Shown here: positions 920 through 21,016 of the stretch, piece by piece
Layout of the letters: every line of letters starts with the position of its first letter
Numbering within the stretch: position 1 is the stretch's first letter
Assembly (NCBI GenBank): GCA_014379595.1
Contig: JACMLM010000071.1
Span: 62,001 to 126,000, forward strand
Direction of reading: 5' to 3'
DNA length: 64,000 nucleotides
Source: Anaerolineales bacterium
GTDB lineage: Bacteria > Chloroflexota > Anaerolineae > Anaerolineales > Villigracilaceae
Notes under the pieces: generated by a model
What the model was told of the DNA's origin: nothing
Databases searched by the model: none
The model's input: only the letters and a program-made list of their open reading frames with translations
Position numbers and translations under genes: made by a program

Positions 920-1297
920 ATGAATACCCCATCCAACCTCATGTATGCAAAGTCCGACGAATGGTTCGACCCATCCAACGGTGCAGTTGGTATCACTGAC
1001 TACGCTCAAAATCAACTCTCTGATATCGTCTTCGTTGAGATCCTTGTAGATGAAGGAGAGGAAGTCACAGCAGGCAAACCCATAGCTTCTGTTGAATCTG
1101 TAAAAGCATCTGCAGAAATTTATGCACCTGCTTCAGGGAAAGTTGGAGCAATTAATAAGGGTATCATTGAAAAGCCTGAAATTCTTAACTCTGATCCTTT
1201 TGGTGACGGTTGGATGATCAAGATCGAAGGCGGCGCACAGGGTGATTTAATGGACTCCGCCGCATACGAAAAACATTGTGAAGAAAGAGCACATTAG
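920..1297 (+). CDS. gcvH: Glycine cleavage system H protein
   Basis: Lipoyl-carrying shuttle protein of the glycine cleavage system; it accepts the aminomethyl group from the P protein. The 125-residue length fits the family. The lipoylation lysine is K62 in the motif VESVKASAEIYAP, the typical H-protein hairpin sequence. Ribosome binding site caggaga lies before ATG 920. It is the first gene after the glycine riboswitch, followed by gcvPA and gcvPB. No gcvT or lpd is seen in this window, so the T and L components must be encoded elsewhere. Confidence 0.96.
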   Translation: MNTPSNLMYAKSDEWFDPSNGAVGITDYAQNQLSDIVFVEILVDEGEEVTAGKPIASVESVKASAEIYAPASGKVGAINKGIIEKPEILNSDPFGDGWMIKIEGGAQGDLMDSAAYEKHCEERAH

Positions 1298-1300
1298 CAT

Positions 1301-1386
1301 GTCATTGCGAGGAGGATGCTCTTCCCGACGAAGCAATCTCCAACACATTGTAGGAGATTGCTTCGGGCTAACGCCCTCGCAATGAC
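1301..1386 (+). repeat. Interspersed palindromic repeat, copy 1
   Basis: Outer arms gtcattgcgag and ctcgcaatgac and inner arms cgaagcaatctcc and ggagattgcttcg form a nested inverted repeat. A second copy lies at 20109-20196. It sits between gcvH and gcvPA; the bases immediately after it (gagg, 1387-1390 region) serve as the gcvPA ribosome binding site. Confidence 0.9.
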
Positions 1387-1398
1387 GAGGAAATTAAA

Positions 1399-2754
1399 AT
1401 GACCTTTATCCCTATATCCCCAAATGAACGGGATGCGATGCTTAAAACGGTTGGCGTCAAATCATTAGATGACCTGTTCGACGCCATCCCAAAGAAACAT
1501 CGCTTTCCAAAATTAGATCTTCCTCCAGCGTTAACTGAAATGGAAGCAGCAGCGCATCTCAGTGAAATGGCGCAGACAAATGAGAACGTACGCGAGCATA
1601 TGATTTCATTTCTCGGCGCTGGTGCATACAACCATTATGTCCCATCAGTGGTAGATCATATGTTACGCCGTGGCGAATTCTATACTGCTTACACGCCCTA
1701 TCAACCAGAAATTTCACAAGGTACATTGCAGGCGATCTTTGAGTATCAATCGCTGATGACCAACCTAACTGGCATGGAAGTCTCGAATGCATCACATTAT
1801 GATGGTGCGACTGCCACAGCTGAAGCAGTGAGTCTTGCGTATGCTCAATTCCGCGGTAAACGCAAAAAGATCGTTATTTCTCCCACTGTCCACCCGCAAT
1901 ATCGTGAAGTCATTCAAACGTATTCACAAGGTATGGGCTTGGAAAAAGTCGGGGATGATGAATCAGCCAACGCCGAAGCTGGACCCGAAGCGTTGATGTC
2001 ACATGTAGATGAAAGCACCATGCTTGTCGTCGTGCAATATCCTGATTTCTTTGGCCGCATCCACGATTATACAAAGTTGATTGAAGATGCACATGCAAAA
2101 GGTGCATTGGTTTGTATTGTTGCAAATCCCACTGCATTGATCATGTTAAAGACGCCTGCAGAAATGGGCGCGGATATTGTTGTAGGCGAAGCGCAGCCAT
2201 TTGGTATTCCGCTGTGGTATGGCGGGCCGTATCTTGGATTCTTCACCACGAAGAAATCTTATGTACATAAAATGGCTGGACGTTTGATCGGCGAAACAGT
2301 TGACTCGCGCGGTCAACGTGCTTATGTGTTAACTCTTACTGCACGCGAACAACACATCAAACGTGAACGTGCAACTTCAAATATTTGTACTAACCAGGGT
2401 TTGCTTGCCCTTGCATCTGCTTTGTACATGTCAACACTTGGCAAGACTGGCTTACAGCAAGTTGCAAATCTTTGTTATCAAAAAGCTCATTACGCCGCAA
2501 GTGAACTCAGCAAAATAGATGGCTGTGATCTTTGCTTCGACGAACCATTCTTCCATGAATTTGTTTTGTGCTGCCCGAAACCTGCAAGCGAGGTCAATGA
2601 ATATTTACTGGAACATGGCATCTTTGGCGGCTACGATCTCGGACAGGATTATTCATCATTGCAAAATCATCTGCTTATCGCCGTGACTGAAATGAATAGC
2701 AAACAAGAAATCGATACGCTTGTGGAAGTCTTAAAGGAGATGAGCCATGAATAA
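1399..2754 (+). CDS. gcvPA: Glycine dehydrogenase (decarboxylating) subunit 1
   Basis: N-terminal half of the two-subunit P protein, 451 residues, the usual size. The start is ATG 1399 with gacgagg 9 bases upstream. The opening segment FIPISPNERDAML and the later SNASHYDGATATAEA and GEAQPFGIPLWYGGP motifs are characteristic of this subunit. It lacks the PLP lysine, which is in the partner subunit encoded next. The gene overlaps gcvPB by 8 bases, implying translational coupling. A dispersed repeat separates it from gcvH, but the three genes read as one riboswitch-controlled operon. Confidence 0.96.
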   Translation: MTFIPISPNERDAMLKTVGVKSLDDLFDAIPKKHRFPKLDLPPALTEMEAAAHLSEMAQTNENVREHMISFLGAGAYNHYVPSVVDHMLRRGEFYTAYTPYQPEISQGTLQAIFEYQSLMTNLTGMEVSNASHYDGATATAEAVSLAYAQFRGKRKKIVISPTVHPQYREVIQTYSQGMGLEKVGDDESANAEAGPEALMSHVDESTMLVVVQYPDFFGRIHDYTKLIEDAHAKGALVCIVANPTALIMLKTPAEMGADIVVGEAQPFGIPLWYGGPYLGFFTTKKSYVHKMAGRLIGETVDSRGQRAYVLTLTAREQHIKRERATSNICTNQGLLALASALYMSTLGKTGLQQVANLCYQKAHYAASELSKIDGCDLCFDEPFFHEFVLCCPKPASEVNEYLLEHGIFGGYDLGQDYSSLQNHLLIAVTEMNSKQEIDTLVEVLKEMSHE

Positions 2755-18275: not shown

Positions 18276-19430
18276 TTACAAGTTAGGAAAAGACTGTTGA
18301 AACACTCTCTGCGCGGCTTCATATCCCTCTCTAATTAACATCGCAGATACATCCCCGTCATAATCAATGATGCGTTCCACGGGTAAAAAATCTTCAGGTG
18401 CAGCGATGATCACTTTTACTTCACGGTATTTATATGGTCCCTTCCCCTCAATGCGCTCACGGACTGCAAGCTCGTTGAACATTTGAATCAATTTCAACCG
18501 CTCGCGGAATGATGAAAGCAGCATCCAATCCAAAGTCCAGGTGATGGCATCGCCAAACGAATTGGGCAATTGACGCGCCGTACGCGGAGCGGGATCGTTG
18601 CTCCCCCACCATGGAGTCATCAACACAACTACAATTTCAGCGGGAACATCAATTGGTACATCGCGCATTGTATCCAGAGCAACACCAATGGGAGTATTGG
18701 CTACGAGTGCGCCATCCCAATAAAAGGCATTGGTTTGTGCATCGAATGTCCAAGGGTAGACCAAAGGAATTGAGCATGAAGCAAGTATACGGTCCGCTGT
18801 GATGCCCGTGGTTACATCCCGCCGTGCTTCACCTGTAACACGATGCACAATATCGCGGTTGCTGAACATCATGCGTTCGCCCGTCTGCACATTGGTTGCG
18901 GCGATTAGCAATGCCTTTTCGCTTTTGGATAGTTGTTCAGGGTCAAAATTAAAACGTGTATGCAGTGTCTTGCGCAGCGGACCTGTATCCAGCAAGTTGA
19001 TCCAACGCCCGATCAAACGCTCGCCCCACCACTTTGAAAAAATGGGCAAAGGAGACCAGAAATCTTTTGGTACTGGAGAAGTAGCATCCTGCGATTTGAC
19101 TTGTGGAAGATTTGCACCCATGATCACGCTGAAGGCTTTGCGTGCGATCCAACGTGCGAAGCCACGCATCCCGGGCGGCAACCCTTGAATATCTTTTTCT
19201 TCAAGTGACTTCCACACATTCTCCAACTCATCAGCAGACATGCCCTGTGCAATCGCAGCGCCATTCACCGCGCCGATGGAAGTTCCAACAACAACCTGCG
19301 GATCCCACGCATTCACATGGTCAGAGTCAACACCGGGTTTATTGATTTCCATTAAATATTTATATACACCTGCATGAAATGCACCGCGTCCGCCGCCGCC
19401 TGAAAGAACCAGAGCACGAATCTTGTCCAT
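18276..19430 (-). CDS. Patatin-like phospholipase family protein
   Basis: 384 residues. The oxyanion loop LVLSGGGGRGAFHAGV is at residues 8-22, the nucleophile elbow GTSIG at 49-53 (S51), and the catalytic Asp in WDGALVANTPIG at D239, giving the Ser-Asp dyad of patatin-type lipid acyl hydrolases. No signal peptide is visible, so it is probably cytoplasmic or peripherally membrane-associated. Start at 19430 with aagaggag upstream. It is divergent from arsR but unlikely to be functionally linked. Confidence 0.9.
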   Translation of the reverse strand: MDKIRALVLSGGGGRGAFHAGVYKYLMEINKPGVDSDHVNAWDPQVVVGTSIGAVNGAAIAQGMSADELENVWKSLEEKDIQGLPPGMRGFARWIARKAFSVIMGANLPQVKSQDATSPVPKDFWSPLPIFSKWWGERLIGRWINLLDTGPLRKTLHTRFNFDPEQLSKSEKALLIAATNVQTGERMMFSNRDIVHRVTGEARRDVTTGITADRILASCSIPLVYPWTFDAQTNAFYWDGALVANTPIGVALDTMRDVPIDVPAEIVVVLMTPWWGSNDPAPRTARQLPNSFGDAITWTLDWMLLSSFRERLKLIQMFNELAVRERIEGKGPYKYREVKVIIAAPEDFLPVERIIDYDGDVSAMLIREGYEAAQRVFQQSFPNL

Positions 19431-19504
19431 GATGAATCTCCTCTTAAGATGTTATAGGTCAATTATTAAAGGATGTCAACTATGAATCCAAAAATTTCAT
19501 CCTC

Positions 19505-19532
19505 TTGACAAATAGACGTTTGTCTATATAAT
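19505..19532 (+). promoter_or_regulatory. arsR promoter with operator in the spacer
   Basis: TTGACA (19505-19510), 16 bases, TATAAT (19527-19532). The 18-base site ATAGACGTTTGTCTATAT (19512-19529), with palindromic ATAGAC/GTCTAT, fills the spacer. The arsR ATG follows the -10 box after only 6 bases, implying a leaderless mRNA. Two related sites occur downstream. Confidence 0.85.
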
Positions 19533-19538
19533 GACACT

Positions 19539-19850
19539 ATGAAATTTGATCCTGTTCTCTTTGCCAAAGCCATCTCTGACGATACCCGTCAGAAGATCAT
19601 GAATGCATGTTGTTGCTGCACGGTCTCAGTGAATGAGATCGTTGAGCAATTGGATGTATCCCAACCTACTGTGTCACATCACCTCGCTATTCTGCGCGAT
19701 GCAGGTCTGGTTACAATTCGCGAAGAAGGCAAACAAACTTTTTATACGCTCAACCAGGAACGTGTTGCTTTTTGCTGCGGACAGTTGATGGTCAAGTTTG
19801 CGCCAGAATCAATTGCAACCGAAAACCTGTTGAAAACTATTAAGGCCTAA
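19539..19850 (+). CDS. arsR: ArsR/SmtB-family metalloregulator
   Basis: 103 residues with winged-helix DNA-binding segment VNEIVEQLDVSQPTVSHHLAILRDAGLVTIREEGKQTFYTL. Four consecutive cysteines (KIMNACCCCTVS, about residues 24-27) and a second pair (VAFCCGQL) offer thiolate ligands for As(III) or a similar ion; the arrangement differs from the classical ELCVCDL site. The gene begins an arsenic unit with a Cys-rich peptide and arsM and probably represses itself through the operator in its promoter. No ribosome binding site; leaderless start inferred. Confidence 0.9.
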   Translation: MKFDPVLFAKAISDDTRQKIMNACCCCTVSVNEIVEQLDVSQPTVSHHLAILRDAGLVTIREEGKQTFYTLNQERVAFCCGQLMVKFAPESIATENLLKTIKA

Positions 19851-19851
19851 T

Positions 19852-19889
19852 CGAGACATGTCTTCGGCCGAGGCGAGTCTCGTTTTTTT
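19852..19889 (+). terminator. Terminator after arsR
   Basis: cgagac (19852-19857) pairs with gtctcg (19877-19882), with a GC-rich inner part, followed by seven T (19883-19889). It separates arsR from the next small gene, which has its own promoter. Confidence 0.75.
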
Positions 19890-19918
19890 GGCAGTTTCTA
19901 TAGACAAACTTCTATATG
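19888..19918 (+). promoter_or_regulatory. Second ArsR-type operator and putative promoter
   Basis: ATAGACAAACTTCTATAT (19900-19917) matches the arsR operator at ATAGAC and CTATAT. It lies between a TTGGCA (19888-19893) and TATATG (19913-19918), upstream of the Cys-rich peptide. The promoter elements are weaker than at arsR. Confidence 0.6.
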
Positions 19919-19932
19919 AAAGGAGAAAACCC

Positions 19933-20019
19933 ATGAACGAATTACCAGTCCTCAACAACGTATGCTGTGAAGATGAAGGTTGTGAAGGCGGTTGCTGCGG
20001 TGGTGGCGGCTGCTGTTAA
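19933..20019 (+). CDS. 28-residue cysteine-rich peptide in the arsenic unit
   Basis: ATG 19933 has an ideal aaaggag ribosome binding site (about 7 bases upstream). The 28-codon frame begins MNELPVLNNV and then has seven cysteines in 18 residues, arranged CC-EDEG-C-EGG-CC-GGGG-CC before TAA at 20017-20019. It lies between arsR and arsM, behind an ArsR-like operator. The vicinal Cys pairs with Gly spacers would suit soft-metal or As(III) binding, so a mini-metallothionein or metallochaperone role is plausible; no family is recognised. ArsM itself has similar N-terminal CC pairs. Confidence 0.75.
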   Translation: MNELPVLNNVCCEDEGCEGGCCGGGGCC

Positions 20020-20079
20020 GTTAGTACGATCTCTGTTCGTCGCAAGATGAGCAGAGAGAAATTAATGAAAATTTTTTAT

Positions 20080-20108
20080 TTGTATACATAGACGATCATC
20101 TATATTAT
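20080..20108 (+). promoter_or_regulatory. arsM promoter with ArsR-type operator
   Basis: TTGTAT (20080-20085), 17 bases, TATTAT (20103-20108). The site ATAGACGATCATCTATAT (20088-20105) occupies the spacer, as at the arsR promoter. The transcript would carry the palindromic repeat 20109-20196 in its 5' leader. Confidence 0.7.
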
Positions 20109-20196
20109 CGTCATTGCGAGAAGCGGAGCGACGAAGCAATCTCCGACGCCGTGTAGGAGATTGCTTCGTCGAGAAGAATACCTCCTCGCAATGACG
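20109..20196 (+). repeat. Interspersed palindromic repeat, copy 2
   Basis: Same family as 1301-1386: outer cgtcattgcgag/ctcgcaatgacg and inner cgacgaagcaatctcc/ggagattgcttcgtcg. It forms the 5' untranslated leader of arsM and ends 20 bases before the start codon. Confidence 0.92.
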
Positions 20197-20215
20197 GAAA
20201 CAAAAGGAGAACAAA

Positions 20216-21016
20216 ATGGCTACTGACACATCCATCCATGAAACAGTTCGCGAGCATTATGCCGAGCGGATTAAGAGCAACGCTTCTTGTTGCGGAACTG
20301 ATAACTGCTGCGACACAACAAACAGTCTCTACCCTGAGCAGTTACTTACTACCGTCCCCTCTGACATCGCCAGCACCAGCTATGGCTGTGGCGACCCGAT
20401 CACCCTTGCTTCCCTAAAGCCTGGTCAAACCGTACTTGACCTTGGCTCAGGCGCAGGTCTCGATTGTATTCTGGCTGCCCAAAAAGTTGGCGAGACAGGT
20501 CACGTGATCGGCGTAGATATGACTCCCGAAATGATCGAGCGTGCCCAAGTCAACGCGAAAAAAGTTAATTTGAATAATATTGAATTCAGGCACGGCTATC
20601 TTGAAAGCCTTCCCGTTGACAGCAATACAGTGGATGTAATCATTTCCAACTGTGTCATCAACCTTTCCCCTGACAAAGAAAAAGTATTCAACGAAGCCTT
20701 CCGTGTGCTTGCACCTGGCGGCAAACTCGCAGTCTCAGATATCGTCACCGATGGCATATTGCCCGATGCTATTAAGCAAAGTCTGAGCGCATGGGCTGGC
20801 TGCGTAGCTGGCGCAGTAGATGCAAAAGATTATATTGCCATGATGGAATCTGTTGGCTTTACAGATATCTCTATCAAGCCAGTCTTGTTCGATAAGGAAA
20901 CTGTCGACTCTGCGCTTGCCGATATGGGTGATGCAATTGACCTGAAAACCATCTCGCGCGAAGATGTCTACAAAGCAGTGTACAGCGCGAAGATTACAGC
21001 ATATAAGCCCGCATAA
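20216..21016 (+). CDS. arsM: Arsenite S-adenosylmethionine methyltransferase
   Basis: 266 residues; methylates As(III) with SAM, a detoxification step. SAM motif VLDLGSGAGLDCILAA at residues 73-88. The three conserved arsenic-binding cysteines are C58 (SYGCGDP), C146 (IISNCVINLSPDK) and C196 (AWAGCVAGA). An extra N-terminal SCCGTDNCC (C25, C26, C31, C32) is seen in many ArsM and may capture arsenic. Ribosome binding site aaaggag. It has its own promoter with an ArsR-like operator and ends at a strong terminator. Confidence 0.96.
   Translation: MATDTSIHETVREHYAERIKSNASCCGTDNCCDTTNSLYPEQLLTTVPSDIASTSYGCGDPITLASLKPGQTVLDLGSGAGLDCILAAQKVGETGHVIGVDMTPEMIERAQVNAKKVNLNNIEFRHGYLESLPVDSNTVDVIISNCVINLSPDKEKVFNEAFRVLAPGGKLAVSDIVTDGILPDAIKQSLSAWAGCVAGAVDAKDYIAMMESVGFTDISIKPVLFDKETVDSALADMGDAIDLKTISREDVYKAVYSAKITAYKPA

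Follow-up and report, generated by a model that had tools for sequence, protein, structure and literature searches.

In a 64,000-nucleotide stretch of the genome of an uncultured Anaerolineales (Chloroflexota) bacterium (hereafter the window), a short gene between arsR and arsM encodes a peptide of 28 residues, seven of which are cysteines. Conservation among relatives indicates that this is a real gene, and its product is probably (we put the likelihood near 0.6) a thiolate 'sponge' induced by trivalent arsenic and resembling a miniature metallothionein.

Organization of the locus

The peptide ORF is flanked by arsR on its 5' side and by arsM on its 3' side, all three on the + strand, and the following features were identified:

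19505-19532, + strand: predicted arsR promoter, TTGACA-16-TATAAT, which contains the operator ATAGAC-N5-TCTAT at 19512-19527
19539-19850, + strand: arsR, encoding an ArsR/SmtB repressor of 103 aa (NF033788, 79.5 bits; also an HTH_5 match)
19852-19889, + strand: predicted arsR terminator, a stem-loop followed by seven T
19900-19915, + strand: putative peptide-gene operator ATAGACAAACTTCTAT, ATAGAC-N5-TCTAT, a strict pattern match
19919-19925, + strand: ribosome-binding site AAAGGAG upstream of the peptide ATG
19933-20019, + strand: peptide gene, ATG at 19933 and TAA at 20017-20019, 28 residues, product MNELPVLNNVCCEDEGCEGGCCGGGGCC
20030-20057, + strand: predicted hairpin after the peptide stop, 12 pairs here (z -4.4 over 20017-20085), then an A/T run
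20088-20103, + strand: putative arsM operator ATAGACGATCATCTAT, a strict pattern match
20216-21016, + strand: arsM, arsenite methyltransferase (NF008823, 312 bits against a cut-off of 263), with SCCGTDNCC near the N-terminus

The cysteines are residues 11, 12, 17, 21, 22, 27 and 28 of the peptide, all within its final 18; six are paired as CC and one stands alone, with Glu, Asp and Gly as spacers. A sequence-only reading of this DNA had proposed a small gene with a good ribosome-binding site behind an ArsR-like operator, with seven cysteines in CC pairs in its last 18 residues; the count agrees with this, the AAAGGAG site is conserved among relatives, the ATAGAC-N5-TCTAT operator lies upstream, and ArsR and ArsM family matches stand on either side as that reading had them. 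No other ORF of 20-32 aa with at least seven Cys exists in the window. Nevertheless, composition alone is insufficient against chance, because 40 order-1 Markov copies of the window also yielded four such ORFs in total, in three copies; it is the conservation in relatives that argues against a chance ORF. A longer in-frame start, ATG 19858 (53 aa), was rejected, since the conservation and the ribosome site start at MNEL and the extra upstream part consists of the terminator and operator.

The strict operator pattern, ATAGAC-N(3-6)-TCTATATNA, has three matches in the 4,473,196-base genome, located upstream of arsR, the peptide gene and arsM, while the reversed control gave one match in the same genome. 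A simple promoter scan of the window called a promoter before arsR (12/12 matches), but upstream of the peptide gene and of arsM it called no consensus sigma-70 sequence. Among 33 peptides of the named loci, 26 have an operator (two mismatches or fewer) in the 80 nt before the ORF; of 2000 windows of 80 nt drawn at random from these loci, true operators included, 88 contain one. The seven peptides without such an operator belong to five arsR-arsM-peptide loci, with the peptide close behind arsM, and to L152 and L154. Upstream of arsM the operator (at most two mismatches) was found in 62 of 70 loci. In the clade of L114, L116, L120, L121 and L124 the peptide operator is altered to ATCGATATGTATCTAT-like forms and the arsR operator stays at ATAGAC or near it, possibly reflecting separate tuning.

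The hairpin after the stop codon, CTCTG...CAGAG, is kept in all 20 aligned loci, which we chose from the 36 with a peptide, and at five of its 11 pairs both sides have changed with pairing preserved; outside the common layout, most loci show other stem-loops after the peptide. A scan of 19400-20300 against Rfam returned only two sub-threshold matches, taken as chance. In the common layout, the peptide gene has the outline of a self-contained cassette, composed of the arsR terminator, its own ArsR-type operator, a ribosome site, the ORF and the covarying hairpin. Among 15 ArsM loci in which no peptide was detected, 13 run from arsR through one operator directly to arsM, which suggests that peptide, operator and hairpin are a removable unit; of the other two, L072 carries the remains of a second copy, a decayed tail, and L075 has a different short gene.

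Some further observations were made on the locus. The genome with the decayed tail (G136) has an intact peptide gene (L078, 4546-4629), and about 1.8 kb further on, beside arsM, lies the decayed second tail, GECCEGGNCGCGFC; in this stretch before arsM (L072) its hairpin is still recognisable. A palindromic repeat, GTCATTGCGAG..., occupies 20106-20196 of the window, after the arsM operator and ahead of the ribosome site of arsM, and the 20100-20215 segment has a predicted fold of -50.8 kcal/mol (z -7.1). Searching the genome with a query containing this repeat gave 62 matches, among them the repeat's own position and cases in which both strands of a single copy were counted; similar repeats are found at the equivalent spot in L047 and L064. 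The window's ArsR has a rich set of cysteines, with CCCC ahead of the helix-turn-helix and FCCGQL near the C-terminus, and this set differs among relatives, for example CCC versus CCCC.

Distribution in related genomes

The peptide query gave matches in 36 of 150 genomes of the same family at E <= 1, many of them weak. Of 30 loci examined from this search, 20, the window's own included, have a full short ORF with an M-x-[ED]-L start, a CC end and an AAGG-type ribosome site before it, and ten have no such ORF. arsR is present in 18 of the 20, the remaining two being contig starts. Fourteen loci read arsR-peptide-arsM; the other six are arsR-peptide with arsM 1.8 kb on (L012), arsM-peptide (L015), arsR-peptide without arsM (L019, L024), peptide-arsM at a contig start (L023) and arsR-arsM-peptide (L029). 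With ArsM as the query, 45 of 57 genomes of the genus matched at E <= 1e-80, and of 30 loci from this query a filter detected a peptide in 15 and none in the other 15.

The ArsR query against named species genomes gave 79 loci, 77 from Chloroflexota (one of them Brevefilum fermentans) and two distant, all containing arsR by construction. Thirty-five, all from Chloroflexota, carry a peptide relative of 23-29 aa: 32 by a uniform filter, L152 by hand, and L118 and L125, which stop at contig edges and whose peptides were read from L015 and L023, taken to be from the same genomes. To pass the filter, an ORF of 17-45 aa needed four or more Cys, a Cys content of at least 15%, a Cys among its final two residues and a stretch resembling a ribosome site. 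The C-terminal Cys is therefore partly built in, in contrast to the prevalence of exactly seven cysteines. A locus counts as lacking the peptide when this filter detected none in the sequence covered, and some loci stop soon after arsM (e.g. L134, L149). The peptide-search and ArsR-search sets are not independent, because many assemblies are common to both.

The order arsR-peptide-arsM holds in 20 of the 35 loci, and two have other genes between peptide and arsM (L096, L133). Five read arsR-arsM-peptide (L109, L127, L142, L143, L144), four have no arsM nearby (L111, L114, L116, L120), two are split over contigs (L118, L125) and two have the peptide far behind arsM (L152, L154), at 1.8-2.6 kb from arsR (2.6 kb behind it in L152). 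The peptides of these last two loci (L152, 5873 onward; L154, 5161-5238) are of a second type, MKIFYNDPGCCDEEEQGSCCGGG(G)CC, preceded by arsM, by a second methyltransferase-like gene and, in L152, also by a permease-like gene; they may have had an independent origin. One of the relatives, L101, is a Candidatus Villigracilaceae.

On a quick tree of ArsR and ArsM with 78 rows (36 with the peptide and 42 without; 31 of 75 inner branches weak; L166 and L167, at 35-38% ArsR identity, left outside), the presence of the peptide needs 13 changes, at least seven of them on starred branches. This suggests that the peptide gene comes and goes, and its apparent absence from 42 of the 78 rows points to a dispensable gene. 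No full-length relatives were found outside the window's own family-level group, f1, among 396 genomes of the class, 400 of the order and 400 of the phylum, and a protein-level search of plasmids gave no peptide match. Weak partial matches in L041-L043, L182-L184 and L044 (the last inside f1) were not accepted as members, since neither arsR nor arsM was matched there at E 1e-3 and no short ORF resembled the family; the weak match L180 is an ArsM frame, and L181 has neither arsR or arsM nor a family-like ORF. In L183, from a distant genome of the phylum, the weak match to the peptide profile is a GCCGEP-repeat frame ending in RCC (1288-1428, minus strand), with no adjoining arsR or arsM match.

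Composition and selection

Counting the window's own, 36 peptides were compared. Seven cysteines occur in 26, six in seven, eight in two and four in one (L143); 34 end in CC, and His is absent from 35. All 36 ORFs start with ATG, and 34 have AAGGAG upstream. Beyond the start Met the peptides are 27% Cys, with about 1% Phe plus Tyr and no Trp, and the first Cys motif is CC in 21 and CxC in 12. The N-terminal block, MNELPV, is conserved and the Cys-rich part drifts. The number of cysteines, the start, the frame and the CC end are mostly conserved, and exact Cys spacing and length are not; the sequence-only reading had looked for conservation of start, frame and spacing, and only the first two are kept. 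Drift in spacing and length with a kept number of cysteines is what would be expected if the thiols outweigh a fixed fold.

In 29 gapless pairs with at least 55% identity, which are not independent of each other, uncorrected pS is 0.507 and pN 0.166, and pS exceeds pN in 27 of the pairs. These values indicate that amino-acid change has been held back, as under selection at the protein level.

Comparison with known families

The peptides match no known family convincingly. A search of 34 peptides against Pfam gave only Conotoxin_I2 (four members, best E 0.045), and against NCBIfam only IscR (one member, E 0.63), both taken as chance. Profile A2, built on 34 rows (L094, identical to L092, L152, a near-copy of L154, and the four-Cys L143 were left out, and L045 was added), matched no PDB structure at E <= 10. 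Its one weak match inside an ArsM frame (G676, E 0.014) draws attention to a likeness between the peptide and the N-terminal Cys stretch of ArsM, SCCGxxxCC, there part of an enzyme; this may be a matter of composition only.

In size and composition the peptides fall within the general definition of a metallothionein, being very small, rich in Cys in CC and CxC arrangements, and with few or no aromatic residues, even though none of the 34 members matched a known metallothionein family model in Pfam or NCBIfam. With bacterial metallothioneins of the SmtA/BmtA kind they share small size and abundance of Cys. A further parallel is the SmtB-smtA pair, in which a metallothionein is under a repressor of the ArsR/SmtB family; for the peptide, ArsR control is predicted from the operator. 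The window peptide has about half the length of SmtA, and differs from bacterial metallothioneins in being without His and in lying in an ars locus. PMC10612145 reports the binding of three to four Zn by three bacterial metallothioneins and names His and hydrophobic residues as typical of the bacterial proteins.

ArsD, a folded protein about 120 aa long, is a second point of comparison. The peptides, of 23-29 aa (28 in the window), are much shorter, and no ArsD family model matched. The likeness lies in the ars locus, in the CC pairs and in a CC-x4-C motif present in 26 of the 36 peptides, a weak argument in so Cys-rich a chain; ArsD has CC pairs and, according to PMC12607644, uses Cys12, Cys13 and Cys18 in transfer to ArsA. 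Phytochelatins and synthetic Cys-rich arsenic-binding peptides are also short thiolate chains, in which As(III) is held by three sulphurs. The present family differs from them in being ribosomally encoded, apparently repressor-controlled and lineage-specific. On these comparisons the peptides are a new family of small proteins, metallothionein-like in outline and outside the described families.

Proposed function and alternatives

The reading that we prefer, the arsenic-induced sponge, would work as follows. Without arsenic, ArsR would sit on the three near-identical operators and keep arsR, the peptide gene and arsM shut. Trivalent arsenic, or another thiol-seeking metalloid, would bind the Cys clusters of ArsR and release it; in ArsR proteins, Cys pairs or clusters are the binding sites for As(III) (PMC13236881). 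The peptide would then be produced from its own short transcript. Its flexible chain of Gly, Asp and Glu, with hardly any His or aromatic residues, would present seven thiols arranged as CC and CxC pairs. These could hold As(III) as a tris-thiolate, with room for two As per peptide, and the captured As(III) would be kept off the proteins of the cell and buffered ahead of methylation or exit. ArsR binding at the sites, transcription, translation, As(III) binding with its stoichiometry and metal preference, and the detoxifying effect are all predicted here from sequence, and a chain of this kind would be a ligand for Zn, Cd, Cu or Hg as well.

The sequence-only reading had offered a mini-metallothionein or a metallochaperone for ArsM. 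The first half gains from the metallothionein-like composition and the selection at the protein level; the second is weakened by genomes in which peptide and ArsM occur apart. Four genomes have arsR and the peptide (G116 with L116, G001 with L111, G523 with L114, and G108, taken as the same as G524, with L120), and none contains an ArsM above the NF008823 cut-off; likewise, the protein search of G116, G001, G523 and G524 found none at E <= 1e-20. Weaker NF008823 matches occur in all nine genomes and all 14 control genomes and were taken as other methyltransferases. The four are MAGs with a stated completeness of 95-96% (no value is given for G523), and they fall in one starred tree group of seven rows, the other three of which have arsM, so the ArsM-less state probably reflects few evolutionary events. 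Conversely, arsM was matched in 41 of the 42 tree rows without a peptide. A genome can thus apparently have the peptide and no ArsM, and arsM is often present where no peptide was found. Delivery of As(III) by the peptide to ArsM or a pump, in the manner of ArsD with ArsA, would suit the position of the gene, which immediately follows arsR and precedes arsM in 20 of 35 loci and immediately follows arsM in five, as well as the ArsD-like CC-x4-C; yet its place relative to arsM is not fixed, and this motif easily arises in a chain with 27% Cys. Together with the separate occurrence of the two genes, this leads us to regard a metallochaperone as unlikely.

We consider it rather improbable that the peptide modulates regulation, taking As(III) from ArsR or binding ArsR and so setting the threshold or speeding re-repression rather than detoxifying in bulk. 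Its closeness to arsR speaks for this, since 17 of the 18 arsR genes in the peptide-search loci are directly before the peptide (in L029 arsM lies between), and inspection by eye showed no further ars gene beside them in the ArsM-less genomes. The distances in L152 and L154 are less close, however, and a pure buffer would yield an identical layout. In raw counts, the 4-Cys state of ArsR accompanies 21 of 36 peptides and nine of 42 tree rows without one, but co-evolution of the two was not upheld by a tree-aware test (seven pairs, median p 1), whose pairs are too few to reach 0.05.

Poly-Cys leaders that act by attenuation are known in mycobacteria, and the hairpin and the position directly before arsM in 20 of 35 loci would also suit a Cys-codon leader for arsM, or a cis-acting uORF with an irrelevant product. 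In four of these 20 loci (L101, L112, L137, L146) arsM has no good operator before it and hence may share the transcript of the peptide; these alone may show the arrangement of a leader peptide, upstream of and co-transcribed with the gene that it controls, which the family as a whole does not. In the other 16, arsM has its own operator (at most two mismatches), in the five arsR-arsM-peptide loci the peptide is behind arsM, and in the four loci without arsM nearby no same-strand gene directly follows, as judged by eye. As selection acts on the amino acids, a leader seems very improbable. Hardly credible is a RiPP precursor, in which MNELPV would be the leader and the variable Cys/Gly part the core: the conserved N-terminal block and drifting Cys-rich part have this form, but a scan of four non-ars genes that flank the locus in the window found no RiPP enzyme, and no modifying enzyme was recognised by eye in the neighbour lists of related loci.

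Biological significance

Bacterial arsenic resistance is usually described in terms of efflux, reduction, oxidation and methylation, and to our knowledge sequestration by a dedicated encoded peptide of the ars regulon is not among its standard parts. No report of such a gene was found among the matches listed in the open-licence literature, which is weak evidence of absence. The peptide gene is a clear case of a regulon gene that is easily missed for its shortness. With some 35 natural variants, chemically simple and synthesisable, the family would allow selectivity for As(III) to be measured directly, and the variants have potential use in sensors and remediation.

The ArsM-less genomes bear on how small an arsenic defence could be, as in some relatives the peptide is the only arsenic gene found beside arsR. 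Their search covered ArsM, ACR3, ArsB and ArsP. ACR3 and ArsB are absent from the four genomes and from the window's own genome (ACR3 is present in G076, G063 and G092); ArsP was found among the four only in G116 and is also lacking from the window's genome. In G001, G523 and G108/OLB14, then, none of ArsM over the cut-off, ACR3, ArsB and ArsP was found. Tentatively, and with less confidence than we place in the sponge itself, we suggest that arsR and the peptide could form a complete two-gene arsenic defence, a sensor and a thiol sponge with no pump, reductase or methylase. The entire output of the regulon in these three genomes would then be a 23-29-residue 'phytochelatin' made on ribosomes.
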